Shown one piece after another: positions 4,219 through 51,036 of a DNA stretch of 64,000 nucleotides (position 1 is the first letter of the stretch; each line of letters opens with the position of its first letter). The notes beneath the pieces are model-generated. The model made no database searches. It saw only the letters and a list, made by a program, of their open reading frames with translations, and had not been told where the DNA came from. The translations under genes were made by a program, and so were the position numbers. The stretch is from Rhodoferax sp. (lineage in GTDB: Bacteria > Pseudomonadota > Gammaproteobacteria > Burkholderiales > Burkholderiaceae_C), in the NCBI RefSeq assembly GCF_030646845.1, contig NZ_JAUSLE010000003.1, positions 1 through 64,000 on the forward strand, read 5' to 3'.

Positions 4219-4317
4219 GAGGACATACGGAAGGAGTCTGATGTTGACAGATTATTCACCACCTGTCAGACAGAAACACCCCGGTGCGGCTGCTCGTCAC
4301 CGTGGCCCGGCTCTTCA

Positions 4318-4374
4318 TTGCTATTAATATGATAGCTATCGACGCTTATTTTACGGGGCCTACAAGCGCATTTA
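4318..4374 (+). repeat. 57-bp dispersed repeat, copy E1 (intergenic, next to eamA-1 stop)
   Basis: TTGCTATTAATATGATAGCT-ATCGACGCTTATTTTACGGGGCCTACAAGCGCATTTA; reference copy for the family. Confidence 0.85.
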
Positions 4375-4377
4375 CAT

Positions 4378-5280
4378 TCAAGTCCGGACTGGCCGGCTGT
4401 TCATCCAGGTGCGCCATCGCGGCCACAGCAGGTTCAAGGCCAGACCCCCCATCACCAGCGCTGCCGCGCCCAGCTTCCAGGCGGGCAGGCCCTCGCCCAG
4501 CCACAGGGCCGCGCCGCCCATGCCAAACAGCGGCACCAGCAGCGCCATCGGCGTGATGGTGGCGGCCGGGTAGCGCGCCAGCAGCCAGCCCCAGGCCGCG
4601 TAGCCAAACAGCGAGTTGGCCCAGGCCTGCCACGCCACGGCCGCCCAGGCGAACGCGTCAGCCCCGCGCACACCCGCTGACACCGCGTCCCACCCTTCCA
4701 CGAGGACAGAAAGCGCCGCCAGCGGCGGCACGGCAAAGAGGCTCGACCACACCACATAGGCCACCATGTTGACCCGTCCGGCTTGCCGCGCCACGATGTT
4801 GCCACCGGCCCAGGACAGCGCCGCCAGCAGTATCAGACCCAGGCCCAGCAGGGTGGTACTGCCGTCGGTATGCATCACGATGATGCCAATACCAGCGGTT
4901 GCCAATGCCAGCGCCAGCCACTGAACGCCCTGCAGCCGTTCACCCGACAGGCGCATGGACAGCCCGATGGTGAAGAACACCTGAATCTGGATCACCAGCG
5001 ACGCCAGACCCGGCGAGATGTGGCCGTTCATGGCGACAAACAGCAAGCCGAACTGGCCCACGCCGATCAAAAGTCCATAGCCGGCCAGGTTGCGCCACGG
5101 CACGTTGGGGCGCGGCAGAAAGAATATCGCGGGCAGCACGGCCAAGGCGAAGCGCAGGGTGGCAAACAGGAGCGGTGGCATATGGCCCAAAGCCAGCTTG
5201 ATCACCACGAAGTTGGTTCCCCACACCGCCACCACGGCCAGCGCCAGCAGGAAGTGCTTCAGGGAGAGCGTGCTTTTCAT
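4378..5280 (-). CDS. EamA/DMT family transporter (O-acetylserine/cysteine exporter-like)
   Basis: About 10 hydrophobic segments; VWGTNFVVIKLAL and LPRPNVPWRNLAGYGLLIGVGQFGLLFVAM are EamA-like. Confidence 0.85.
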   Translation of the reverse strand: MKSTLSLKHFLLALAVVAVWGTNFVVIKLALGHMPPLLFATLRFALAVLPAIFFLPRPNVPWRNLAGYGLLIGVGQFGLLFVAMNGHISPGLASLVIQIQVFFTIGLSMRLSGERLQGVQWLALALATAGIGIIVMHTDGSTTLLGLGLILLAALSWAGGNIVARQAGRVNMVAYVVWSSLFAVPPLAALSVLVEGWDAVSAGVRGADAFAWAAVAWQAWANSLFGYAAWGWLLARYPAATITPMALLVPLFGMGGAALWLGEGLPAWKLGAAALVMGGLALNLLWPRWRTWMNSRPVRT

Positions 5281-8871: not shown

Positions 8872-10590
8872 TCAGGGCGCGGGCGTTATCAACGGCGAAG
8901 CGGCGAACGCCGGGGCCGGCGCGTCGCGCAACTCCCTGCGCAGAATCTTGCCCAGGTTGGTCTTTGGCAGGGGCTCGGTTCGGAACTCGACGATCCTGGG
9001 CATCTTGTAGCCGGTCAGGTGCTGGCGGCAATGCGCAAGCAAGGCCGCTTCGGTCAGCGCCGGATCGTTCCTGACCACGATGATCTTCACAACCTCGCCG
9101 GACCGCTCGTCGCGCGCGCCGATGGCCGCCACTTCCGCCACGCCCGGGTGCAAGGCCACCGCGTCCTCGATCTGGTTGGGAAAGACCTTGAAGCCCGACA
9201 CGATGATCATGTCTTTCCTGCGATCGGTGATCTTGAAGTAGCCGCGCTCGTCCATGTAGCCCATGTCGCCGGTACGCAGCCAGCCGTCAGAAGTGAACAC
9301 CTTGGCAGTCTCGTCGGGCCGGTTCCAGTAGCCGGGCATGACCTGCGGGCCCCGCACACAGATCTCGCCGACCTCGCCAGGCAGGAGTTCGTTGTCACTG
9401 TCGTCAAGAATGGTGGCCTCGGTCGACGGCACCGGGATACCGATTGTTCCAGTCCACTGCTCGATGCCCAGCGGGCTGGAGATCACGACCGGCGAGGTCT
9501 CGGTCAAACCGTAACCTTCGATGATGGTCACGCCGGTGCGCTGCTTCCAGCGCTCGGCCACCACGCGCTGCACGGCCATGCCCCCGGCGCTGGTGAGCTT
9601 CAGGGCACGGGTATCCACGTCCGCAAACTCGGGTGCATCAAGCAGCGCCCGGTACAGCGTGTTGACGCCAATGATGATCGTGAAGGGGTATTTCTTGAGG
9701 TCGTGGATGAAGGCGTGCATATCCCTCGGATTGGTCACCAGGATGGTATGCGCGCCGAACTTCATGAAGACGAGCGCGGAGGTCAGTGCGTAGACGTGGT
9801 ACAGCGGCAACGGGCAGACGAAGATCTCCTTGCCCTCCACCAGGTCACGCGCCATCCACAACGCCATCTGCTGCACATTGGCGACCAGGTTGCCATGCGT
9901 CAGCATGACGCCCTTGGCCACGCCGGTGGTGCCGCCGGTGTACTGCAGAAATGCAATGTCCCTATGGCTCAGCGGCACGTGCTGCAGTGTTTGTCCACGG
10001 CCTTCGCGCAAGGTGGCATTGAATTCGATCGCACCCGGAATCTTCCACTCCGGCACCATGTGTTTCACGTACTTGACAACCACGTTGGTCAGCAGTTCCT
10101 TGACCACCGGGAACATGTCGCCAACCTCCGTCGTGATGACCCTGAGATCCAGCGCAAGATTTTTTTCCAGCACCTGTTGCAGCGTGTGGGCAAAGTTCTC
10201 CAGCACCACGATGGCGAGCGCGCCGGAGTCCTTCAACTGGTGCTCCAGCTCGGGCACTGTGTACTGCGGATTGACGTTCACCACCACGAGACCGGCCCGC
10301 AGCACACCAAACAGCGCCACCGGGTATTGCAGCAGGTTGGGCATCATGATCGCAACCCGGTCGCCCTTGTGCAACCCCAGCGAGTTCTGCAGGTAGGCGG
10401 CAAAGTCGCGGCTGTGCTGGTCAAGCTCGGCGTAGCTCATCGACGCCCCCATGTTGCTGTAGGCCGGCAAGTCCGCAAAGCGGTCACAACTGCGTCGCAT
10501 GACCTCCCGCAACGAGGCGAACTCGTCTACATCGGCCTCGGCCGCCATCCCTGGCGGGTAGCTCGTCAACCAGAGCTTGTCCATATTCAC
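8872..10590 (-). CDS. fadD: Long-chain-fatty-acid--CoA ligase (copy 1)
   Basis: AMP-binding motif LQYTGGTTGVAKGVMLTHGN, GYGLTETSPVV, GWLRTGDMGYMDERGYFKITDRRKDMIIVSGFKVFP. Confidence 0.93.
   Translation of the reverse strand: MNMDKLWLTSYPPGMAAEADVDEFASLREVMRRSCDRFADLPAYSNMGASMSYAELDQHSRDFAAYLQNSLGLHKGDRVAIMMPNLLQYPVALFGVLRAGLVVVNVNPQYTVPELEHQLKDSGALAIVVLENFAHTLQQVLEKNLALDLRVITTEVGDMFPVVKELLTNVVVKYVKHMVPEWKIPGAIEFNATLREGRGQTLQHVPLSHRDIAFLQYTGGTTGVAKGVMLTHGNLVANVQQMALWMARDLVEGKEIFVCPLPLYHVYALTSALVFMKFGAHTILVTNPRDMHAFIHDLKKYPFTIIIGVNTLYRALLDAPEFADVDTRALKLTSAGGMAVQRVVAERWKQRTGVTIIEGYGLTETSPVVISSPLGIEQWTGTIGIPVPSTEATILDDSDNELLPGEVGEICVRGPQVMPGYWNRPDETAKVFTSDGWLRTGDMGYMDERGYFKITDRRKDMIIVSGFKVFPNQIEDAVALHPGVAEVAAIGARDERSGEVVKIIVVRNDPALTEAALLAHCRQHLTGYKMPRIVEFRTEPLPKTNLGKILRRELRDAPAPAFAASPLITPAP
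8929..10590 (-). repeat. Direct gene-length duplication, unit 1 (fadD copy 1)
   Basis: Nucleotide sequence closely matches 10750-12413 over the gene length (for example the shared block ...cagcaggttgggcatcatgatcgc...). Confidence 0.85.
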
Positions 10591-10730: not shown

Positions 10731-12413
10731 TCAGGACGCTGGCGCCGGCGCGTCGCGCAACTGCCGGCGCAAAATCTTGCCCAGGTTGGTTTTGGGCAGA
10801 GGCTCGGTGCGGAACTCGACAATCTTCGGTATCTTGTAGTCGGTCAGGTGCTGGCGGCAATGCGCGAGCAAGGCCGCTTCGGTCAGCGCCGGATCGATCT
10901 TGACCACGATGATCTTGACGATCTCGCCGGACTTCGCATCGGGCACGCCGATGGCCGCCACCTCGGCGACACCTGGATGCATGGCCACGGCGTCCTCGAT
11001 CTGGTTGGGAAAGACCTTGAAGCCCGAGACGATGATCATGTCTTTCTTGCGGTCGGTGATCTTGAAGTAGCCGCGTTCGTCCATGAAGCCCATGTCGCCG
11101 GTCCTCAGCCAGCCGTCAGCAGTGAACACCTTGGCGGTCTCGTCGGGCCGGTTCCAGTAGCCCGTCATGACCTGGGGGCCGCGGATGCAGATTTCACCAA
11201 CCTCGCCGACCGGAAGTTCTCTCCCATCGTCGTCAAGCACGGCCGCCTCGGTCGACGGAAACGGCATGCCAATGGTGCCGGTCCAGTCGACGATGTTCAG
11301 CGGGTTGCAGATCGCGCCGGGCGAAGTCTCGGTCAGCCCGTAGGCCTCAATGATGGGCACGCCGGTGGCCGCCTTCCAGCGTTCGGCCACCACGCGCTGC
11401 ACGGCCATGCCGCCGGCATTGACCACCTTCAGGCTGTGCAAATCGACTTCCGAAAACTCAGGCGCGTCCAGCAGCGCCCGATAGAGCGTGTTGACGCCTA
11501 TCATCACCGTAAGCTTGTGCTTCTTGAGATCGTGGATGAAGGCATGCATGTCCCTCGGGTTGGTGATCAACACGTTGTGCGCCCCGATCTTCATGAACAC
11601 AAGGCTCGAGTTCAGCGCGTAGACGTGGTACAGCGGCAACGGGCAGACGAAGATCTCCTTGCCGTCCAGCAGATCACGGGCGATCCACGCGCCTACCTGC
11701 TGCAGGTTCGCCACCATGTTGCCGTGCGACAGGACAGCGCCCTTGGCCACGCCGGTGGTGCCGCCGGTGTACTGCAGAAACGCGATGTCGCTGTGACTCA
11801 GCGGCACATGGTGCAGGGTTTGTCCACGGCCTTCGCGCAGGGTGGCATTGAATTCAATTGCGCCCGCAATCTTCCACTCCGGCACCATGTGTTTCACGTA
11901 CTTCACCACGACGTTGGTCAGCAGCTCCTTGACCACCGGGAACATGTCACCGACCTCCGTCGTGATGACCGTCAGCTTGAGCGCCGGGTTCTTCTCCAGC
12001 ACCTCCTGCAAGGTGTGGGCAAAGTTTTCCAGCACGACGATGGCCACAGCGCCCGAGTCTTTCAACTGGTGCTCCAGCTCGGGCACCGTGTACTGCGGAT
12101 TGACGTTCACCACCACCAGGCCGGCCCGCAGCACGCCAAACAGCGCCACCGGGTATTGCAGCAGGTTGGGCATCATGATCGCGACCCGGTCGCCCTTATG
12201 CAGCCCCAGCGAGTTCTGCAAGTAGGCGGCAAAGTCGCGGCTGTGCTGGTCAAGCTCCGCGTAGCTCATCGCGGCACCCATATTGCTGTAGGCGGGCAAG
12301 CTCGCAAAGCGCTCGCAACTGCTTCGCAGCACCTCCCGCACCGAACTGAATTCGTGAACATCCACCTCGGCCGGGATCCCTGGCGGGTAGTTCTTCAACC
12401 AGAGCTTATCCAT
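10731..12413 (-). CDS. fadD: Long-chain-fatty-acid--CoA ligase (copy 2)
   Basis: Same AMP-binding motifs; long blocks identical in protein sequence to the adjacent copy; start chosen at MDKLWLKNYPPG. Confidence 0.93.
   Translation of the reverse strand: MDKLWLKNYPPGIPAEVDVHEFSSVREVLRSSCERFASLPAYSNMGAAMSYAELDQHSRDFAAYLQNSLGLHKGDRVAIMMPNLLQYPVALFGVLRAGLVVVNVNPQYTVPELEHQLKDSGAVAIVVLENFAHTLQEVLEKNPALKLTVITTEVGDMFPVVKELLTNVVVKYVKHMVPEWKIAGAIEFNATLREGRGQTLHHVPLSHSDIAFLQYTGGTTGVAKGAVLSHGNMVANLQQVGAWIARDLLDGKEIFVCPLPLYHVYALNSSLVFMKIGAHNVLITNPRDMHAFIHDLKKHKLTVMIGVNTLYRALLDAPEFSEVDLHSLKVVNAGGMAVQRVVAERWKAATGVPIIEAYGLTETSPGAICNPLNIVDWTGTIGMPFPSTEAAVLDDDGRELPVGEVGEICIRGPQVMTGYWNRPDETAKVFTADGWLRTGDMGFMDERGYFKITDRKKDMIIVSGFKVFPNQIEDAVAMHPGVAEVAAIGVPDAKSGEIVKIIVVKIDPALTEAALLAHCRQHLTDYKIPKIVEFRTEPLPKTNLGKILRRQLRDAPAPAS
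10750..12413 (-). repeat. Direct gene-length duplication, unit 2 (fadD copy 2)
   Basis: See unit 1. Confidence 0.85.
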
Positions 12414-12681
12414 GTGACTGTCTCCTTTTCTGACCGCACGTGCATCCTGGACCCGACGGCGCGCCGGGAGTCCGGCGTGTTGCGGCACGCCTCAGGATGC
12501 TGACAACCGTGCAGAAAATCCAGTCTAGGAAGTGGCCGCTACGCCAGCTTGATATTTCTCAACGTCAAGCCCTGCTGGAGGCGCTTTTTTTGGCACGTTC
12601 AGGTTCAGCACTGATCGAACACCAGCCTGACGCCCGGATTTCTTTGAAAGCAGGGCACCAGCCCTCGTTGAATTTGCGTAT

Positions 12682-12701
12682 GTCGCTATCTATTCGATAG
12701 C
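12682..12701 (+). repeat. Possible 5' half-copy of the dispersed repeat (E9), abutting the DUF1501 stop
   Basis: TCGCTATCTATTCGATAGCA matches the first 20 nt (GCTAT-N7-ATAGC); the 3' part is not recognisable ungapped. Confidence 0.4.
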
Positions 12702-12702
12702 A

Positions 12703-14160
12703 TCAGAGCATAAAGCCGAGATTGACCGGGTAACCGGTTCCGCCAAAATGGCCGAGGTTGGGCAGGATGCCGGTGAGTTCACCGTCAGCCACGCCAAACC
12801 ATTTGGCCAGCGTCGCGGCGTACTGGTCTACCGAGGTACTGGGCAGCAGCCGGCCTTGCCCCACGTGCCACTGGTCTTCCGGCGCGGCGGTATTGGCGAC
12901 ACTGACCGGCGGTGGGACGCCGTAGAACGCTTTGCCGTTGACCGCACCGCCCACCACCAGGTGATGGCTGCCCCAGCCATGGTCCGAGCCGTCACCGTTG
13001 GAGGCCAGGGTCCGGCCGAAGTCGGAGGCGGTGAAAGCCGTCACCTTGTTGGCCACCCCCATCTCGACCGTGGCGTCGTAAAACGCCGTCATGGCGGCAC
13101 TCACCCGGCCCATCAAAGCGGACTGCTGCCCAACCAGGTTGTCGTGCAGGTCAAAGCCGCCCAGTGACACAAAGAACACCTGGCGCGTCGCGCCGAGCGT
13201 GGCCTGGCCCTTGATCAGGCGTGCCACCATTTTCAGCTGCTGTGCAAAGCTGTCGGTCGGAAACACCGTGGCAGGAGGCGTCAGCGCCAGGGCCGCCGTC
13301 ACCGAGCCTTCCGCATTGATGGCGCGCTGGGTGACCCGGTTGTATTCGTTTTCCAGTTTCTGGGGCCTGGCTTGCTGAATCAGGCTGTTGAGGGCGCCGC
13401 GCACTGCACTGGAGCCATAGACCGTGGGGTCTGTGGCGGGTCGGATCCGGATGGCACCGGTGGTGCTGACCTGGTACTGCAGCGCCGTGTCACCCGACAG
13501 AAAGACCGCATTGCCCGTCACCGACATGCAGGTAAACAGGGAGTTGGAGTTGCCCGACAACGCCAGGTCACCGATGTTGCCACCCCAGCCCACCTTGGAG
13601 CCCTCGGGCGAGGACGATTGCCAGATGGATTGCTGGTCATTGTGGGAAAACAATTGCGGCGGCCGCGGGTACAGGGCCCGGTTTGAATTGCTGTACTGCG
13701 CGCGCGTCAGCGGCACCACCAGCGGGCCCACGTTCAGTTGCACCGCCGCGTGGCCGGTGTTGAACAGATTGGCCACGCCACTCATGGACGGATGCAGTGC
13801 GTACTGGCGCGCCTGCCCCAGAACATCCACGGGCGCAACGGCGGGATTCAGCAGCGTGGCCGCCAGATCCGCCTTGGCCAACGCGATGCCGCCGGCCGTC
13901 TGCCCCACGCCACCGCCGCGGATGGCGCTGTACAGGTTGTAGCTGGGGTCGTCATACGTCACGACGGTATTGGCATAGTCGTTGCCACCGTACAGGAACA
14001 CGCAAACCAGTGCCTTGTAGTCAGTGGCGTCAAAAGCGGCGGCCTCACCCATGGCCGCCAGGTTCAGCGCGAGTGGCAGGGCGGTGCCGGTCAGTGCCAG
14101 CTGACCGGAACGCTTCAGAAAGGCGCGGCGGGTATGGTGTTGGGCTTGTAGTAAATGCAT
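12703..14160 (-). CDS. DUF1501 domain-containing protein
   Basis: RRAFLKRSGQLALTGTALPLALN leader, ALVCVFLYGGNDYANTVV, FTASDFGRTLASNGDGSDHGWGSHHLVVGGAV. Confidence 0.92.
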   Translation of the reverse strand: MHLLQAQHHTRRAFLKRSGQLALTGTALPLALNLAAMGEAAAFDATDYKALVCVFLYGGNDYANTVVTYDDPSYNLYSAIRGGGVGQTAGGIALAKADLAATLLNPAVAPVDVLGQARQYALHPSMSGVANLFNTGHAAVQLNVGPLVVPLTRAQYSNSNRALYPRPPQLFSHNDQQSIWQSSSPEGSKVGWGGNIGDLALSGNSNSLFTCMSVTGNAVFLSGDTALQYQVSTTGAIRIRPATDPTVYGSSAVRGALNSLIQQARPQKLENEYNRVTQRAINAEGSVTAALALTPPATVFPTDSFAQQLKMVARLIKGQATLGATRQVFFVSLGGFDLHDNLVGQQSALMGRVSAAMTAFYDATVEMGVANKVTAFTASDFGRTLASNGDGSDHGWGSHHLVVGGAVNGKAFYGVPPPVSVANTAAPEDQWHVGQGRLLPSTSVDQYAATLAKWFGVADGELTGILPNLGHFGGTGYPVNLGFML

Positions 14161-19723: not shown

Positions 19724-22315
19724 TCACATTGGCCTTGAACTGGTCAAGTAGCGCGCGAATTCGTCCGCCGGCATGGGACGGGCAAAATAATAACCCTGTG
19801 CGCCGTCACATTGAATGCTGCGGAGTTGTTGCAGGATCTCCGGGGTTTCCACCCCCTCGGCAACGGCCTGGAGATCCAGGCTGTGTGCCATCTGGACAAT
19901 GGCTTTCACAATCGCGGCGTCGTCCGGATCTGTCGCCAGATCGCGAACAAACGACTGGTCGATCTTGAGTTTGTCGACGTCAAACCGCTTGAGATACGAG
20001 AGACTGGAATAGCCGGTGCCGAAATCGTCGATGGACAGTTTCACGCCCAGTAATTTGAGCCGCTTGACGCTGCCCAGCACCTGCTCGACATTCTGGATCA
20101 GGACGGATTCGGTCAGCTCCAGTTCCAGCAGGGAAGGCGCAAGGCCCGACAGTGCCAGGGCCTTGAGCACGGTTTGTTCCACGTGGCCGTGCCTGAACTG
20201 CACGGCCGACAGATTCACGGCTATCGCAAGCTCGGGCAAGCCGGCCGTTTGCCAGGCCATGGCCTGTCGACAGGCCTCGTGGATCACCCATTCCCCCATG
20301 GGAACGATCAGGCCGCTGTCTTCGGCAATGGAGATGAACCGCCCCGGGGATACCAGACCGAACTCCGGGTGCTGCCAGCGAATCAGCGCCTCCGCGCCAA
20401 TCACCGCGCCGCTGGCCAGGTCGATCTGGGGCTGGTAGTGGAGGATGAATTCACTTCGCTCCAAAGCGCGTCGCAGTCCATTGCGAATCACAAGGTGTTC
20501 AACCACCTCGGCATTCATTTCTTCATCAAAGAAGCGGTAGGTGTTGCGCCCCGCTTCCTTGGCCCGGTACATGGCCGTGTCGGCCTTCTTGCTCAAGGTC
20601 TCGAAATTATGCCCATCCTCGGGATAGATGGCCACCCCGATGGAGACCGATGTCGAGAGTTCGTTGCCGTCCGTATCAAACGGATCCTGCAGACGTCCCA
20701 TGATCTTGGCCAGTACCGGTGTGGTGGCATCGAGGTCGGGCAGGTCGCTCAACACGATGACGAATTCGTCGCCGCCCTGTCGGCTGATGGTGTCCGTGTC
20801 CCGAACACATTCACTCAGGCGCGACGCGACCTCCTTGAGCAGCGCATCGCCCGTGGCATGCCCCAGCGAGTCATTGATCTTCTTGAAATTGTCCAGATCG
20901 AGAAACATCAGTGCCAGCTGGGTCCCGGTGCGATCTGCATGCGCCATGGCCTGCTGCACGCGGTCCTGCAGCAGCAGGCGGTTGGGCAGCCCGGTCAGGG
21001 GATCATGGTAGGCAAGGAATTCGATTTTCTGCTCAGAGACCTTCTGCTCGGTGATGTCCGAGCCCGTGCCGCGATACCCAAGAAATACCCCGTTCTCGAA
21101 CACCGGCTTGCCGCTGATCGAGAACCATCGCAGTTGACCGGGCTGGGTCTCCATCTGGTAAACAAAGTCCTTGAAGGGCTGATGTGCTTCAAGGACTTGC
21201 CGGTGTTCCTGCAGTTGCGCTTGCGTCAAACCAACAATGGGCAATTCCCATCGCGTCTTGCCAATCGTTCTGTAGGGATGCAGCTTCGTTGGGATAAGTC
21301 CGACCGACATTTCGATGAAGCGAAAATGGGTGTCCTGCTCCCAGAACCAGTCGGATGACATTTCCGACAAGTCCCGAAATCGTGCTTCGTTGGCGCGCAG
21401 ATGGTTTTCGATTTCCTTGCGCTCGGCCACTTCCAGCATCAAGCGCGCATTGGCCTGTGCCAGTTCTTCGGTCCGCTCCCGCACCCGCTGCTCAAGCTCC
21501 CGGTGGGCGCTGGCCAGGGCCTCCTGCGCTGACTTCTTCTCACGGATGTCTTCGGTAATCCAGATCGTGCTGCGGCTGCCATCGGCCGTTGACAGTGCCT
21601 TGGCCAGATGGCGGCACCAGATCAGCACACCGTCCTTGCGGGCATTGAGCCACTCGATGTCGACCAGCTCACCGGCCGCCAGCTTCTGGCCGACCGCCTC
21701 CCCAAAACGGGCATAGTCCTGCGCATCCTTGAAGAACACTTCAGCTTTCTGACCCGTCAAGGCACCGACGGGCCAGTGCAGGATGACCTCGGCGCGCGGG
21801 TTGCAATGCACGATCCGGCCATTGCTGGTGAACATGATGCCCAGGGAGGCATTTTCGAGAATGGCCTGCTGCTTGAGCAGCACTTCCTCCAGCTCGGCCT
21901 GCGCGCGTTTTCGCTCCCCAATGTCCTCGGCAATCCAGATCGTGCCTTCAGCGGTGTTTTGCGGGTTGATGACCTTGGCACGCATGCGGCAACAGACCGT
22001 GCTGCCGTCCTTGCGACGCAACTGCATTTCACGGTCCAGCAGCGCCCCGCTGGAGAGAATGGGCGACGCAATGCGTCCTATCTCGGCATAGTCTTCTGGC
22101 GATAGATAGAACACGGAGCCGTGCTGGCCAACCAGTTCGCCCTGCGGCCAGCCAAAGATCTTCGAAAACTCGGGATTGCAATGCAGCACCCGCTGGTCGC
22201 GGCTGAACAGGATGCCGACCGAGGCATTTTCGAGAATGGCCTGGTACTCAAGCAGCGTCTGCTGGACCGAAGACAGTGGGGAGTTGCCAACGAGCGGGGT
22301 GGGCGAGTCGGTCAT
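19724..22315 (-). CDS. Multi-PAS GGDEF-EAL protein
   Basis: Tandem PAS modules (QAILENASVGILFS / QAILENASLGIMFT), RQGGDEFVIVL, GAEALIRWQHPEFG, DDFGTGYSSLSYLKRFDVDKLKID. Confidence 0.94.
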   Translation of the reverse strand: MTDSPTPLVGNSPLSSVQQTLLEYQAILENASVGILFSRDQRVLHCNPEFSKIFGWPQGELVGQHGSVFYLSPEDYAEIGRIASPILSSGALLDREMQLRRKDGSTVCCRMRAKVINPQNTAEGTIWIAEDIGERKRAQAELEEVLLKQQAILENASLGIMFTSNGRIVHCNPRAEVILHWPVGALTGQKAEVFFKDAQDYARFGEAVGQKLAAGELVDIEWLNARKDGVLIWCRHLAKALSTADGSRSTIWITEDIREKKSAQEALASAHRELEQRVRERTEELAQANARLMLEVAERKEIENHLRANEARFRDLSEMSSDWFWEQDTHFRFIEMSVGLIPTKLHPYRTIGKTRWELPIVGLTQAQLQEHRQVLEAHQPFKDFVYQMETQPGQLRWFSISGKPVFENGVFLGYRGTGSDITEQKVSEQKIEFLAYHDPLTGLPNRLLLQDRVQQAMAHADRTGTQLALMFLDLDNFKKINDSLGHATGDALLKEVASRLSECVRDTDTISRQGGDEFVIVLSDLPDLDATTPVLAKIMGRLQDPFDTDGNELSTSVSIGVAIYPEDGHNFETLSKKADTAMYRAKEAGRNTYRFFDEEMNAEVVEHLVIRNGLRRALERSEFILHYQPQIDLASGAVIGAEALIRWQHPEFGLVSPGRFISIAEDSGLIVPMGEWVIHEACRQAMAWQTAGLPELAIAVNLSAVQFRHGHVEQTVLKALALSGLAPSLLELELTESVLIQNVEQVLGSVKRLKLLGVKLSIDDFGTGYSSLSYLKRFDVDKLKIDQSFVRDLATDPDDAAIVKAIVQMAHSLDLQAVAEGVETPEILQQLRSIQCDGAQGYYFARPMPADEFARYLTSSRPM

Positions 22316-23521: not shown

Positions 23522-24406
23522 CTACTGTGTCAGTTCCAGCGCCAGGCACAAATCAGCCCAGGCGCGGGCCTTGTCCTGCTGGGTGCGCAACAGGTAGCCC
23601 GGGTGGTAGCTCACCACGACCGGAATGCCGTGGTAACGGTAGATTTGCCCGCGCAGCTTGCCCAGCGGGATGCTGGCGACTTCGGGCAGGCTGCCCTGCA
23701 ACAGCGCCTGGGCGGCAAAGCGCCCCATGGCCAGAATGACTTTGGGCTGCACCAGCGCCACCTCGCGGCGCAGGTAGTTTTCACAGGCGGCGAGCTCCTG
23801 CGCGTCGGGATTGCGCACCACGGCCGGACGGCACTTGACGACGTTGGTGACATAGGCCGCGCTCGCCCTGCTGGCGGTCCCGCCACGCCGGCTGACGCCA
23901 AGGGCCTTGAGCATGTTGTCCAGCAATTGGCCGGCCTGGTCGGCGAAGGGCGCACCCTGGCGCTCCTCGGCCTCATCCGGGGGCTCACCCACCACCAGCC
24001 AGTCGGCCTGACGAGGTGCCTCGGCATCGGCAGCGCCGAACACCGGGGCCCGGCGCCCGGTGCGCAAGGCGCACGCCTGACAGTTGGCCACGGTCTGTGC
24101 CAGTGTGGGCCAATCCATGCCCGCAATGCCGTCAGACAGTCCGGCGGGCGCAACGGGTGGCGCGGGTTCGCGCCGGTCGGGCACCCGCGAATCTGGTGCC
24201 TTTGAGGCTGTAGCCCCCGTGTTTATTGCCTCAATAGCTATTATTTCGATAGCAATCGCGGCAGCCGTTTCCGTTTCCGTTTCCTCTTCACTCCCGGCTA
24301 CCTCAGCCGCGAGGCCGACATCGGCCACGGCTTCGGGCAGCCAGACGCGCACCCCCATCTCCTGCAACATGGCACGCTGGCGTTGGTCGAGGTCAAGACT
24401 CATCAA
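23522..24406 (-). CDS. Uracil-DNA glycosylase, family 4/5-like [4Fe-4S]
   Basis: CQACALRTGR, VVGEPPDEAEERQGAPFADQAGQLLDNML, VTNVVKCRP, YHPGYLLR; in tsaB-rimI-udg order. Confidence 0.9.
   Translation of the reverse strand: MMSLDLDQRQRAMLQEMGVRVWLPEAVADVGLAAEVAGSEEETETETAAAIAIEIIAIEAINTGATASKAPDSRVPDRREPAPPVAPAGLSDGIAGMDWPTLAQTVANCQACALRTGRRAPVFGAADAEAPRQADWLVVGEPPDEAEERQGAPFADQAGQLLDNMLKALGVSRRGGTASRASAAYVTNVVKCRPAVVRNPDAQELAACENYLRREVALVQPKVILAMGRFAAQALLQGSLPEVASIPLGKLRGQIYRYHGIPVVVSYHPGYLLRTQQDKARAWADLCLALELTQ
24199..24255 (-). repeat. 57-bp dispersed repeat, copy E2 (in udg, sense)
   Basis: TTGCTATCGAAATAATAGCT-ATTGAGGCAATAAACACGGGGGCTACAGCCTCAAAGG; ungapped alignment to E1. Confidence 0.85.
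24265..24284. repeat. Hexanucleotide tract (CCGTTT)x3 in udg
   Basis: ccgtttccgtttccgtttcc encodes an ETETET run next to repeat E2. Confidence 0.8.
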
Positions 24407-25594: not shown

Positions 25595-25644
25595 CGCCGC
25601 ACTCCCGCGCCGGCCGGCATTGCCCGAATTTCGAAAATCATCAT

Positions 25645-25701
25645 TAAATCAGCCTCCAGCCCCCGCCACACCTGCATGAGCAGCTTCTTTTTTAATAGCA
25701 A
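25645..25701 (-). repeat. 57-bp dispersed repeat, copy E3 (supplies stop codon of eamA-2)
   Basis: TTGCTATTAAAAAAGAAGCT-GCTCATGCAGGTGTGGCGGGGGCTGGAGGCTGATTTA; ungapped to E1. Confidence 0.75.
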
Positions 25702-26680
25702 CCGGCGCTGCCGCGCGCACACCAAACAGAATGCCCATCGTCACCAGTGCCAGGCCCGCCGCCAGATTCCAGAACAGCGGCTCGCCCAAAAACAGCACCG
25801 CGCCCAATGCCGACAAGCCCGGCACCAGCGCCGTGATCATGGTGGAGCGCACCGGGCCGTAGTGCTGGATCATTTTGGTGAAGGTGATGCCGGAGATCAC
25901 CACCGAACCCCAGCCCTGAAACACGGTCTGGAACAGCACTTCGCGCAATGGGGCCGTGAACACATGACCTTGCACCACCTGCCCCAGCACCAGCGCGGCG
26001 TACACCGGCACATAGATCACAAAGGCGAAGGCGGTGATGGCGATGGTGGCGCGCACGGCATCCAGCGCATGACGGCGCGCCAGCACGCTGTAGGTCGACC
26101 AGCACAGCGCGGCCACCATGAACAGCACATCACCCTTCCAGACCTCGCCGCCGTCGAACGCCCGCAACAGGCTGGCGCCGCCCACCAGCAGGTCGCCCAG
26201 CACGATCAGGCCCAGGCCCAGAGCGCGCAGCGGCGTGATGCGGTCGTGCAGGACCAGTGCCGCCAGCAGGGCCGTCCACAGCGGCAGGCTGCCCGGCATC
26301 AGCACCGAGGCGTGCAGCGCCGGCGCAAACACAAAGCCGCTGTAGGCCAGCAGCGCATACAGCAGACCACCAAACAGGCCAACGGTGGCGGTGACCCGAA
26401 GCGACAGCGGCGACAAGCCCAGCAGCGACGACTGTCCTACCCCCAGCGCCCGGTCGCGGCGCACCAGCCACGCGCCCCAGGGCAGCAACACCAGGCTGGC
26501 GCCGACGATGCGGCAAAACGCAATGTCAAATGGCGTCAGGGTGCCGCCGCGCGCCGGGTCGGCCGAGGCGCGGGCGATCAGGATGAAGGACGTCCAGATG
26601 AGCACCGTGACGACGGCGGCGGCCAGGCCAATCGTGCGGGGTGAAAAACCCCTGGAAGAATGGCGTGAGGAAGCGTGCAT
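25649..26680 (-). CDS. EamA/DMT family transporter
   Basis: Ten hydrophobic segments; two EamA-like halves. C-terminus AIKKEAAHAGVAGAGG* is encoded by repeat copy E3. Confidence 0.86.
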   Translation of the reverse strand: MHASSRHSSRGFSPRTIGLAAAVVTVLIWTSFILIARASADPARGGTLTPFDIAFCRIVGASLVLLPWGAWLVRRDRALGVGQSSLLGLSPLSLRVTATVGLFGGLLYALLAYSGFVFAPALHASVLMPGSLPLWTALLAALVLHDRITPLRALGLGLIVLGDLLVGGASLLRAFDGGEVWKGDVLFMVAALCWSTYSVLARRHALDAVRATIAITAFAFVIYVPVYAALVLGQVVQGHVFTAPLREVLFQTVFQGWGSVVISGITFTKMIQHYGPVRSTMITALVPGLSALGAVLFLGEPLFWNLAAGLALVTMGILFGVRAAAPVAIKKEAAHAGVAGAGG

Positions 26681-29707: not shown

Positions 29708-30745
29708 TCAGGCGGCCGACGCCCGTTGCAGGCGGTCACGCACCCCGTCCCACTCGGGCGTGTCGGGCGGCGTTTCGATCCAGATCAGCTTGACGCCCTG
29801 CGCATCAAAGTCGCGCAGCACCGCAAACAGCTGCTGCGCCGTGGCCGCTGCATCGTCGGGCATGCGCCGGCGCAGCACTTTGCTGGACCGGGTTGTCAGA
29901 ATGGCGCGCGAATAGGTGGCGATGACCAGGCCGGCGCCGTCAATGTCGGCCCCCAGCACGTCCAGCGCCGTCTGCAGGGCACGGGCGTCCATCAGGCGCA
30001 CCTTGGCCTTGGGCGCGTAGTGGGACTCCAGCGTGCCAGAGGCGCGTGGGGCCTGTGTGTTGTTCGTCATCAACTCCTCGTTTGACAGCACCGGCTGCCC
30101 GCACACGGCTTGCACCTGCTCGCGGGAGATGGCGCCGGGGCGCAGCAGCACCGGCACACCGCGCGTGCAGTCGATGATGGTGGACTCGATTCCCACGGCG
30201 CAGGAGCCGCCATCCAGAATCAGCAGGTCGTCGCCAAATTCACCTTGCACGTGTTTTGCCGTGGTCGGGCTGACGCGGCCAAACTGGTTGGCGCTGGGGG
30301 CGGCGAGGCCCCATACCGGCTTGTGCGGCTGCTGCGGGTTATCTCCCGGCGCCAGACAGGCTTTGAGCACGGCCTGCGCCACGGGATGCGAAGGGCAGCG
30401 AAGGCCGATGGAGTTCTGTCCACCGGCGGCGGCCGCCGCCACGCCGGCGCGGCGCGGCAGGATCAGAGTCAACGGTCCCGGCCAGAAGGCCTGGATGAGT
30501 TTCTCTGCAAAGTCGGGCACCTGGCTCGCAAAGCGCCCCACGCCGGACGCGTCCAGCACGTGCACGATCAGGGGATGGTCAGCGGGTCGGCCTTTGGCGG
30601 CAAAGATCCTGGCAATGGCGGCGTCGTTTTCAGCGTCGGCCGCCAGGCCGTACACCGTCTCGGTTGGCAAGCCCAACAGGCCACCTGCCCTTATCGTCTC
30701 TGCAGCAGCCGCTATTGATTTCGCAGCATAACCGTCCAGAATCAT
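29708..30745 (-). CDS. L-threonylcarbamoyladenylate synthase (Sua5-type)
   Basis: AGGLLGLPTETVYGLAADAEND, KGRPADHPLIVHV, GAISREQVQAVCG, C-terminal Sua5 domain. Confidence 0.93.
   Translation of the reverse strand: MILDGYAAKSIAAAAETIRAGGLLGLPTETVYGLAADAENDAAIARIFAAKGRPADHPLIVHVLDASGVGRFASQVPDFAEKLIQAFWPGPLTLILPRRAGVAAAAAGGQNSIGLRCPSHPVAQAVLKACLAPGDNPQQPHKPVWGLAAPSANQFGRVSPTTAKHVQGEFGDDLLILDGGSCAVGIESTIIDCTRGVPVLLRPGAISREQVQAVCGQPVLSNEELMTNNTQAPRASGTLESHYAPKAKVRLMDARALQTALDVLGADIDGAGLVIATYSRAILTTRSSKVLRRRMPDDAAATAQQLFAVLRDFDAQGVKLIWIETPPDTPEWDGVRDRLQRASAA
30709..30728 (+). repeat. Possible 5' half-copy of the dispersed repeat (E4, in sua5, antisense)
   Basis: CCGCTATTGATTTCGCAGCA matches only the first 20 nt; the 3' part does not align. 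Confidence 0.35.
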
Positions 30746-30759
30746 GGCTGAATCCGGAC

Positions 30760-31932
30760 TCAAAACGCCTCAAGGCCGAGACATTTGGCCGCCGCCAAAG
30801 CGGTGGCACGAACCTCGGCCACCGTGGCGCCGGTGAGGGTCAGGTGTCCCATCTTGCGGCCCTTGCTGGCCTTGAGCTTGCCGTACAGGTGCAGATGCGC
30901 GCCGGGCAGCGCCAGTACCTGGTCCCACGGCGGCGAGGCCTTATCCAGCCACAAGTCCCCCAGCAGGTTGAGCATGATGGCCGGGCTGTGCTGGCGCGGC
31001 TGCACCAGCGGCAGGCCCGCCAGGGTGCGCACCTGCAGGTCGAACTGCGAGACGTCGCAGGCGTCGACCGTGTAGTGACCGCTGTTGTGCGGACGGGGCG
31101 CCATCTCGTTGACGATCAGCGTGCCGTCCTGCAACACAAAGAACTCGACACACAGCACACCGACGTATTGCAGCTCTTCTGCTATCGATTTTGTAGCTGC
31201 AACCGCTTGTTTGGCGAGGGCTGGTGGCAGATTTCCTTCATACGCCTCGGTCACGGCCAGAATGCCCTCGCGGTGCAGGTTGAGCTGCACCGGCAGGTTC
31301 ACCATCACCCCGTCCCAACCGCGCGCCACGATCACCGAGCACTCGGCCTGCAGCGGCAGCATCTTCTCCAGCACACAGGGCGCGCCTTTGAGTTCGGCCC
31401 ACGCCGTGGCGAGCTCAGTGCGGGTTTTGACGCGCACCTGGCCTTTGCCGTCGTAGCCCAGGCGTGCCGTTTTCAGGATGCCGGGCAGCAAGTCGTCCGT
31501 CACGGCGGCGAGGTGCGCCGCCGTGTCAATCACCGCATAGGGTGCGCAAGGGACACCGCAGCGCACAAAATGCGCTTTTTCCTTGGCCCGGTCCTGCGCA
31601 ATGCCCACCGCCTCGGCGCCGGGGGCCACCGGCCGATGCGAGCCGAGTGTCATCAGGGCCGGGGCCGGCACGTTCTCGAACTCGGTGGTAATCGCCGCGC
31701 AACGCTGCATCAACTGCGCCAGGCCCTGCTCGTCGAGGTAGTCGGTCTGGATGTGGTAGTGGCTGACCAGCCCGGCCGGACTGGCGACATCGGGGTCCAG
31801 CACCGCGGTGAAGTAGCCCATCGCCTGCGCCGCCTGCACAAACATGCGGCCCAGCTGGCCGCCGCCCATGACACCCAGCGTCGTCTGCTGCCCGCTGCCG
31901 GTAGTTCCCGGCAGAATCGTTTGCCGGCTCAC
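30760..31932 (-). CDS. purK: 5-(carboxyamino)imidazole ribonucleotide synthase
   Basis: [41 protein letters not shown]. Confidence 0.95.
31179..31235 (+). repeat. 57-bp dispersed repeat, copy E5 (in purK, antisense)
   Basis: CTGCTATCGATTTTGTAGCT-GCAACCGCTTGTTTGGCGAGGGCTGGTGGCAGATTTC; ungapped to E1. Confidence 0.75.
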
Positions 31933-32527: not shown

Positions 32528-33436
32528 ATGATGAACGTTACTGTTGAAAACTTTGATGCCGAGGTGGTTGCCGCCTCAATGCAAACCCCGGTCCTGGTCG
32601 ACTTTTGGGCACCCTGGTGCGGTCCCTGCAAAGTGATCGGTCCGCTGCTGGAAAAGCTGGAAACAGATTACGCCGGCCGCTTCAAGCTGGTCAAGATCGA
32701 TTCGGACCAGGAACAGGAACTCAGTCAGGCTTTTGGCATTCGCAGCATTCCCACCTGCGTGCTGATGATCGACGGCAAACCGGTGGACGGCTTCATGGGC
32801 GCGCTGCCGGAGGGCCAGATCAAGGCCTTTCTGGACAAGCACCTGCCCGCAGGCGAGGTGCTGGAGGCCGAAGTCACCAGCACGGAAGTGTCGGACGCAC
32901 CCGCTGACAACGACCCCGTCGCCATTCGTGAGGCGCTGCACCAGGCCGTGCTCAAGAACCCGGAGGACGAGAACGCCCGCTTTGACTACATCAAGCTGCT
33001 GCTGCAGGCCGGTGACATTGACGACGCCAAAGTGGCGTTTGCCCCGGTAATCGCCAAGACCGCTCAGGTGCGGCGCTTTGATTCACTGCAGCGGTGGATG
33101 AATGCTATTGATTTCGTAGCTGACCGGGCAGATTTGACGGGGGCCAATGCCGGATTTGATGCAAAAATAGCAGCCAACAAGCGCGACTTCGACGCCCGCT
33201 TTGGCAAGGCCCAAACCCTGATGGCGGCGCAGGACTGGACCGGCGCCATGGATGAGTTGCTGGAAATCCTGATGCGGGACAAAACCTGGGCCGACGAGCT
33301 GGCGCGCAAGACCTTCATCGCCATTCTGGACATCATCGAACCACCCCAGGTCAAAGTCGCCGACGGGCAGATCCCACCGGTGGACCCCACCGTGGCGACC
33401 TATCGCCGCCGCCTCAGCAGCGTGGTCCTGAGCTGA
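32528..33436 (+). CDS. cnoX: Thioredoxin-domain co-chaperone (CnoX/YbbN family)
   Basis: Thioredoxin fold with [10 protein letters not shown]-terminal TPR-like extension ([23 protein letters not shown]). Confidence 0.9.
33102..33158 (+). repeat. 57-bp dispersed repeat, copy E6 (in cnoX, sense)
   Basis: ATGCTATTGATTTCGTAGCT-GACCGGGCAGATTTGACGGGGGCCAATGCCGGATTTG; ungapped to E1. Confidence 0.8.
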
Positions 33437-46900: not shown

Positions 46901-47871
46901 TAGTCGACGCGTTTCTTAAAGACCATGCCGGGCCGCAGATCAAAACCCCGCAGGAAGTCCGCCACGCCCAGACGTTTTGCCCCGGGGCGCTGCAATTCTG
47001 AAACGATCACTATCGAATTCATAGCTGCCACCGCAATACCTTCGGGGGCTACAGCCAGAATTGATCCAAATTCCGCGCCAGAAGGCGGTGCACCCAATCC
47101 CACGTTCGCCCCCCAAATTTTGAGCGTCTCGCCGCTCAAGGTTGCCGCCGCGCCAGGAAACGGATTGAACGCGCGAACACGCCGCGTGATCCGCTCGGCC
47201 GGTTGGGACCAGTCAATCATGGCCTCGTGCTTTTCAATTTTGTGGGCGTAGGTAACGCCGTCTATGGGTTGCGGCACCGGCTTCGGGCCACCGCGAGCCG
47301 CCAGCTCCAGGGCATCCACGATCAAACGGCCACCCAGGGCCGCCAGCTTGTCGTGCAATGTGGCGGTGGTGTCGGTTGCGGCGATCGGCAGTTTTTCCAC
47401 AAGCAGCATGTCGCCCGTGTCCAGTCCGGCGTCCATTTGCATGATGGTCACGCCGGTCTCGGTGTCACCCGCTTCAATCGCCCGGTGAATGGGTGCGGCA
47501 CCGCGCCAACGGGGCAGCAGTGAGGCGTGAATGTTGAAACAACCCAGGCGGGGTGCATCGAGCACCCACTGCGGCAGGATCAGGCCATAGGCCGCCACCA
47601 CCATCGCATCCGCCTGCGCCGCTTCAATGGCAGCACGCGCGGCTGCGGCATCCTCCGGGTATTTGCCGTCCAGCCTCAGGCTGCGCGGTTGCGCTACCGG
47701 CACGCCCATATCGAGGGCGCATTGTTTGACACTCGATGCCTGCAGCTTCATGCCGCGCCCTGCGGGTCGGTCGGGCTGGGTCAGCACGAGCGCAATCTGA
47801 AAACCAGCGGCTCGCAGACGCTCCAGCGCAACGCGGGCAAACTCGGGCGTGCCAGCGAAGATCAGCCTCAA
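46900..47871 (-). CDS. fmt: Methionyl-tRNA formyltransferase (probable TTG start)
   Basis: [38 protein letters not shown]; no ATG at the family N-terminus, TTG overlaps the def stop codon (TTGA). Confidence 0.94.
47007..47063 (+). repeat. 57-bp dispersed repeat, copy E7 (in fmt, antisense)
   Basis: TCACTATCGAATTCATAGCT-GCCACCGCAATACCTTCGGGGGCTACAGCCAGAATTG; ungapped to E1. Confidence 0.78.
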
Positions 47872-49818: not shown

Positions 49819-51036
49819 ATGGAGCTTGAAGAACTCGGCAGCTGGCTGCGACTGACACTCACGCCGGGTGTCGGCAATGAAAGCGCCCGCAAGTTGCTGG
49901 CGGCATTTGGGCTGCCAGACGCCGTGTTCAGGCAGTCGACGGCAGCGTTGCAGCAAGTGGTGACTCTGGCGCAGGCCACCGCCCTGCGCACCGAGCCGCC
50001 TGCCTTGGCGGCGCTGATTGACCTCACTTGGGCGTGGCTGCAGGGATCCGGAGCCGGCCAGGCGCAACGCCACATTGTGGTGTTGGGTGACGCGGACTAC
50101 CCGGCGTCACTTCTGACCATTGAGGACCCGCCGCTGATGCTGTACCTGTTGGGCGCCGGTAGATTCTCACCAGATAGCGCTCAAACTACCGCAGATATAT
50201 CGAACTCAACTGATTATTCAATAGCAAATAGTCTGGCCAACAGCATTGCCGTGGTCGGCAGCCGCAACCCCACCCCGCAAGGCGCCGCCAACGCACGGCA
50301 TTTTTCCAAAGCGATGGGGATGGCTGGCCTGACCGTGGTGTCCGGCCTGGCATTGGGTGTCGATGGCGCTGCGCACGAGGGTGCCCTGGACAGCGTAACA
50401 CCGGGTTCGAAGCGACTGGCCACTGTGGCTGTGGTGGGCACGGGACTTGACCGCGTATACCCCAAAGGTCACCTTGAGCTGGCCCACCGTATTGCCCAAA
50501 ACGGGCTGCTGATCAGCGAGTACCCGCTGGGCACGCCACCTTTGGCGGCCAACTTTCCCAATCGCAACCGAATCATTGCGGGACTGGCCCAGGGCACGCT
50601 GGTCATTGAGGCTGCCTTGAAGTCCGGCTCGCTCATCACTGCACGCCTGACGGCCGAGCAAGGCAAGGACGTTTTTGCCATTCCTGGCTCCATTCACTCC
50701 ACCCAGGCGCGCGGTTGCCACGCGCTCATCAAGCAGGGGGCCAAACTGGTGGAATCCGCGCAGGATGTGCTGGAAGAGATGAACGTCGACACCGGACCGG
50801 CGTTTGCCATTCACTCAGTAACGGGTGGCGAGGACATCGTGAGTGCGGATGGACTGTTTGACACGGAGCACGCTCTGCTGGACGCCCTCGGTTTTGACCC
50901 GGTGGGACTGGACGCTCTGCAGGCCCGCTGTGGCCTGGACACTGCCAATTTGCAGGCGCAGTTGATGGCATTGGAGCTTGACGGACTGGTCGCGCGCTTG
51001 CCCGGCGGCTTGTTTCAGCGCATGGCCGAGGCCTAA
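49819..51036 (+). CDS. dprA: DNA-processing protein DprA
   Basis: IAVVGSRNPTPQG, TVVSGLALGVDGAAHEGAL, AVVGTGLDRVYPKGH, FPNRNRIIAGLAQGTLVIEAALKSGSLITARLTAEQGKDVFAIPG. Confidence 0.95.
   Translation: MELEELGSWLRLTLTPGVGNESARKLLAAFGLPDAVFRQSTAALQQVVTLAQATALRTEPPALAALIDLTWAWLQGSGAGQAQRHIVVLGDADYPASLLTIEDPPLMLYLLGAGRFSPDSAQTTADISNSTDYSIANSLANSIAVVGSRNPTPQGAANARHFSKAMGMAGLTVVSGLALGVDGAAHEGALDSVTPGSKRLATVAVVGTGLDRVYPKGHLELAHRIAQNGLLISEYPLGTPPLAANFPNRNRIIAGLAQGTLVIEAALKSGSLITARLTAEQGKDVFAIPGSIHSTQARGCHALIKQGAKLVESAQDVLEEMNVDTGPAFAIHSVTGGEDIVSADGLFDTEHALLDALGFDPVGLDALQARCGLDTANLQAQLMALELDGLVARLPGGLFQRMAEA
50171..50227 (-). repeat. 57-bp dispersed repeat, diverged copy E8 (in dprA, antisense)
   Basis: TTGCTATTGAATAATCAGTT-GAGTTCGATATATCTGCGGTAGTTTGAGCGCTATCTG; same ungapped length, weaker identity. 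Confidence 0.6.

Follow-up and report, generated by a model that had tools for sequence, protein, structure and literature searches.

A dispersed DNA motif of about 65 bp, read as a linker peptide in a Rhodoferax uracil-DNA glycosylase, resembles DNA-uptake sequences

In published accounts, preference for own DNA by means of dispersed sequence motifs is known only in the Pasteurellaceae and Neisseriaceae. The USS of Haemophilus influenzae and other Pasteurellaceae consists of a 9-bp core with short AT tracts and occurs 1,465-2,206 times per genome (PMC7811141, PMC1626085). The DUS of the Neisseriaceae measures 10-12 bp, varies in dialects, and has the pilin ComP as its receptor (PMC3630211, PMC2397512). 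Accounts of both report gain in situ, tolerance within genes, dialects and collective loss (PMC7811141, PMC3630211), as we describe here. REP sequences with RAYT transposases are extragenic (PMC2817692), and Rickettsia palindromic elements (RPE) are inserted blocks of ~150 bp (reviewed in PMC10969869). The Rhodoferax motif that we analysed resembles DNA-uptake sequences, yet exceeds all known ones by far in length.

The window is a stretch of 64,000 nucleotides from the genome of a Rhodoferax species. Its minus-strand ORF at 23522-24406 encodes 294 aa, is open throughout (the start codon is approximate), and by profile match is a family-4 uracil-DNA glycosylase (UDG; TIGR00758, E 6e-43, residues 109-287; also PF03167). 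Motif copy E2 lies within this gene at 24187-24259 on the minus strand, a span that includes the 24199-24255 given in an earlier note, and scores 57.4 bits with a position-specific matrix of the motif family. Read in sense and in frame, its DNA gives AIAIEIIAIEAINTGATASK in the N-terminal linker of the protein, in the context EEETETETAAAIAIEIIAIEAINTGATASKAPDSR and with CQACALRTGR ~40 residues downstream. The ORF thus bears out the earlier description of a coding, in-frame copy with this peptide in a low-complexity linker, which is also hypervariable. That E2 would be nearly superimposable on the intergenic copy E1 (4314-4386, plus strand, 64.9 bits) was an overstatement, as the two share 42 of 73 positions, with 16 of 20 shared in the left arm, which is ordinary for a family with a mean pairwise identity of 51%. 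The further claim of a peptide added to UDG is right as to length: linkers with the motif are ~25 aa longer (median 102 aa, n=16, vs 74 aa, n=28; p=0.0008, kinship ignored). It does not hold as an event specific to this UDG, as ~17 UDG loci, including those of Rhodoferax, Polaromonas and Ottowia, carry the motif at the identical place, strand and frame. The peptide is present in most UDG orthologues of repeat-carrying genomes. Elsewhere there are only remnants, such as the decayed AEVIEKRATSALASEPAARQ in the UDG of a congener (G215) whose whole genome yielded no motif copies in a pattern search. The peptides that the motif encodes in UDG orthologues differ strongly (AIEIIAIEAINTGATASK, AINKEATSAGTARAGGLND, APESIAVSAQPARAAGLKH), yet the motif scores in them stay at 45-63 bits, and the conserved object in UDG is therefore the DNA. 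Reading E2 as a local added peptide is also too small because the same motif overlays conserved proteins elsewhere without any extra peptide. E2 is real, but as a by-product of a DNA motif found throughout the genome it is no local UDG novelty; the udg product would tolerate it as a linker peptide of ~23 residues.

To describe the motif family, a 73-column matrix was trained gap-free on 1.24 Mb of the same Rhodoferax genome. It found 186 sites above 14 bits in the 1.24 Mb and none in the reversed control, where no site exceeded 10 bits. This corresponds to one copy per ~6.7 kb and, extrapolated from the 1.24 Mb, to ~650 copies in the 4.35 Mb genome, some of which may stem from the 6.5% contamination of the genome bin. 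The bin holds two mutL genes (L024 on C3 and L043 on C65), both motif-bearing at GFRGEAL, consistent with that 6.5% being contamination by a related strain. The consensus, nnanttGCTATnaAtTTnATAGCTnctngCGCAnnttnnACGgGGGCTagaGgCcnATTTnncnnnaAannnn, spans ~65 bp and holds 49.8 bits in total, with information peaks ~12 bp apart. GCTAT-N7-ATAGC, CGCA, ACGnGGGCTA and ATTT/AAA tracts follow one another in this order, with spacing that is fixed in every copy. As pairwise identity among the 164 copies above 30 bits reaches a maximum of 78% (mean 51%), the family is no recently expanded clone. No prior description of the motif was found in the open literature searched, with motif sequence fragments included as queries.

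Besides E1 and E2, the window contains a copy immediately 3' of the stop codon of a DUF1501 gene (12635-12707, minus strand, 56.6 bits) and a sense copy across the 3' end of an EamA-family gene (25633-25705, minus strand, 57.2 bits). Further copies lie within genes: antisense in purK (31175-31247, plus strand, 55.8 bits), sense in a thioredoxin/TPR gene (33098-33170, plus strand, 62.2 bits), and antisense in the C-terminal domain of fmt, encoding methionyl-tRNA formyltransferase (47003-47075, plus strand, 58.9 bits). Weak copies are found near the N-terminus of a 351-aa ORF at 29708-30763 (30661-30733, minus strand, 31.0 bits) and at 50159-50231 (minus strand, 24.7 bits). Elsewhere in the genome, motif host genes include mutL, where the motif falls on the conserved GFRGEAL region, ligA, dnaX, purL, aroE, moeA, selO and acnA. 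According to a simple gene caller, the 164 copies above 30 bits comprise 91 that are wholly genic, 25 that run across a gene edge and 48 that are intergenic. Genic copies occur on both strands with an antisense majority, and one codon phase accounts for 73 of the 91 (47 antisense, 26 sense), which we attribute to stop codons being avoided in the remaining frames. Each of the 90 genic copies that could be tested outscores all 300 synonymous recodings of its own protein, with means of 52.6 vs 3.2 bits. For E2, the recodings average 8.3 bits with a maximum of 32.9 bits, and even the weak copy at 30661-30733 exceeds all 300. This reveals a constraint on the DNA and not on the peptide. E2 is thus one copy of a dispersed duplex-DNA motif that lies on either strand, within and between genes, and is maintained at the DNA level.

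Next, we focused on how the motif came to lie within genes. In purK, the antisense copy runs through a conserved ATP-grasp helix, and orthologues align without gaps, with a net gap of ~0 at the site in 35 motif-free orthologues. Motif-bearing genomes retain the motif at 28-64 bits, whereas in motif-free genomes ordinary codons specify this helix. Accordingly, GC3 in 40 motif-bearing purK orthologues is 0.31 at the site vs 0.83 in the rest of the gene, and in 42 motif-free orthologues 0.76 vs 0.82; eight orthologues are intermediate. The thioredoxin/TPR site likewise shows no net gap in most of 42 motif-free orthologues, and differences in profile length are near zero for the motif-bearing MoeA, RlmI, AroE, HpnE, SelO and UrtB. 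In rlmD and purL, the motif occupies the same orthologous sites across many genera. The residues gained with it (+7 in rlmD, ~+5, and +11 to +14 at purL site 1) fall short of its 23 codons, and motif-less sister genomes retain the extra length. Larger gains were found in the Ottowia udg loop (~+16 to +24 aa) and, by profile length, in AcnA (~+22 aa). The gapless alignments, the gains below motif length and the length kept after loss indicate that gain proceeds by replacement plus small indels and loss by decay. The motif thus arises mainly by base replacement, with small indels in loops and linkers.

Two individual loci deserve mention. An apparent 22-aa insertion at L193:2258 was rejected as an artefact of a spurious reading frame. 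At motif site 1 of purL in G032 (L280), a different in-frame stretch, VIPAQAGIHGGAGMDSRLRGNDG, resembles another dispersed palindromic repeat.

To place the motif among relatives, we examined 301 genomes of the same GTDB family. At one mismatch or fewer, 110 of these contain it, with a few to 278 matches each, and the others have none. All plasmid matches are from Comamonadaceae, no phage record matches E1, and the strict motif pattern occurs in only three viral contigs. The core varies by genus, with ACGGGGGCT in G000, ACTAGCGCT in G263 and ACGGGCGCC in G218, and the core of G227 differs from all three. Among 59 loci around purK, none of the 32 without the purK motif has another copy, whereas 23 of the 27 with it do (Fisher p=1e-12). 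Motif loss is therefore coordinated within genomes, the whole set decaying together. A purK tree computed without the motif columns requires 16-18 changes of motif state, at least 9-10 of which are forced by well-supported branches; most are read as losses because the site is identical. Five loci titled Hymenobacter or Akkermansia (L180, L197, L202, L218, L185) have a Comamonadaceae-type purK inside the family tree and are probably mis-binned or contaminated.

Across hundreds of genes and spacers, Comamonadaceae probably keep this motif because some cellular factor recognises the DNA as such. This trans-acting recogniser would exist in the lineages that bear the motif, and in others it would have disappeared or changed its specificity. 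Tentatively, and at slightly less than an even chance, we infer that it sustains the motif, most likely through a molecular drive like that of uptake sequences. The recognition process would then be sequence-biased DNA uptake during natural transformation: fragments that match better would be taken up and recombined more often, and the motif would accumulate. Uptake bias with molecular drive would explain gain by substitution in situ, tolerance within genes, dialects and collective loss. Like uptake sequences, the motif is over-represented throughout a lineage (186 sites vs 0 in the control; 110 of 301 genomes), arises by substitution within genes (purK, thioredoxin/TPR and rlmD, with residues gained at some sites), and forms lineage dialects (G000, G263, G218 and G227).

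The motif shares with USS its dispersal in genes and spacers, a GC core with AT tracts, evolution by point mutation, lineage variants and sparser occurrence in newly acquired DNA. The AT tracts beside the core, the mode of evolution and the thinner coverage of atypical regions match published accounts of USS (PMC7811141), the depletion in atypical regions being slight and not decisive (Spearman 0.20, p=0.02). With DUS it shares family-wide occurrence, lineage dialects, genic copies confined to stop-free frames, and relatives without the motif. However, its density is below that of either, and USS in particular is shorter and much denser. Uptake motifs are short (a core of ~9-12 bp, ~30 bp with flanks), and ~65 bp with 50 bits would seem to exceed what uptake bias alone requires, which counts against the uptake model.

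In profile searches, ComEC, PilQ, a ComEA-type domain and a ComP_DUS-type pilin were present in motif-bearing and motif-free genomes alike, unlike the DUS system with its ComP. A change in receptor specificity, rather than gene loss, could be the reason that competence genes and pilins fail to track the motif. A candidate receptor is a ComP_DUS-type minor pilin (PF16732, 79.8 bits) encoded immediately after a pilY1-like ORF (L339, G000:C31:38641-38919).

In the main rival to the uptake model, a chromosome-organising protein, such as a nucleoid protein, topoisomerase or segregation factor, would bind the motif or wrap DNA there, and the motif would be selected for genome architecture. We consider this less likely than not, although a fixed length with information peaks ~12 bp apart, dispersed and near-random positions (CV of gaps 0.90), exact orthologous sites conserved over many genera, and a weak strand bias within contigs would all suit such a protein. 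However, strong strand polarity is absent, and sister species have repeatedly lost the whole set, which would not be expected of an architectural system. Sites over conserved helices of many unrelated proteins would also be costly where density alone suffices.

It is less probable still that the motif is a small mobile element of the MITE, REP or RPE type that inserts in frame, with E2 as one insertion. The high copy number and the extra residues at the udg linker (~+25), the Ottowia udg loop, purL site 1 and AcnA are as such an element would leave them. As in RPE, the repeat is read in frame inside unrelated housekeeping genes, but most copies in conserved domains add no residues here, and the sites are old and common to several genera. 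Insertion of a MITE or RPE unit would leave motif-free orthologues short by its full length, which was not found at purK, in most thioredoxin/TPR comparisons or at rlmD; the gapless purK overlay contradicts it. Near-identical copies are absent, and no target-site duplication was seen. REPs, too, number hundreds per genome and are short, imperfect palindromes, but they are extragenic, whereas more than half of the strong copies here (91 of 164) are fully genic. They would also depend on a cognate RAYT.

A RAYT transposase was rejected as the driver of the motif because its gene is a single-copy one found in motif-bearing and motif-free genomes; Y1_Tnp was found in 40 of 42 genomes independently of motif presence. 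In most of the Burkholderiaceae genomes tested (e.g., G122, G286, G072, G256 and G263; L324-L331), this single-copy, RAYT-like gene lies downstream of pilQ at a distance of ~6-8 kb. Of eight genomes inspected, three (G122, G256 and G072) have a motif copy at its stop codon, and the rest have none adjoining.

It is very improbable that the motif works on transcripts, as a structured RNA or in the manner of a terminator. The GCTAT/ATAGC inverted repeat would allow it, as would the somewhat enriched occurrence of intergenic copies between convergent genes (11 of 48 vs 44 of 370 spacers). However, the arm positions vary independently with no compensatory covariation, mutual information being confined to neighbouring positions, which points to duplex DNA as the target. 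The mostly antisense genic copies on both strands also argue against an RNA, and Rfam gave no relevant match to the motif. Chance resemblance of a low-complexity, hypervariable linker to an intergenic repeat is refuted by the 57.4 bits of E2, a score that no site of the 1.24 Mb control approaches (none above 10 bits), and by recurrence at one place in ~17 UDG loci.

Comamonadaceae may own a third, independently evolved system of sequence-specific DNA exchange. Its ~65 bp motif would be the longest bacterial self-recognition motif known, written over conserved genes by the hundred and lost more than once as a complete set; we regard this as a possibility, with rather less than even confidence. 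A third family with a several-fold longer motif would then provide an independent test of molecular-drive theory. Whatever the recogniser, a 65-bp DNA signal governs the choice of synonymous codons, and in part of residues, across hundreds of genes. It thereby affects gene annotation, analyses of codon usage and selection, and 'insertion' calls across a large environmental family. The existence of motif-bearing and motif-free sister species makes the search for the recogniser directly testable.

Two other features of the window involve duplications. An internal duplication with a 375-nt period (21514-22256) lies in an 863-aa ORF at 19724-22315, whose sequence is PAS-GGDEF-EAL-like. A 300-nt stretch is present at 88% identity in two neighbouring ORFs (8907-9206 and 10736-11035), indicating a recent duplication.
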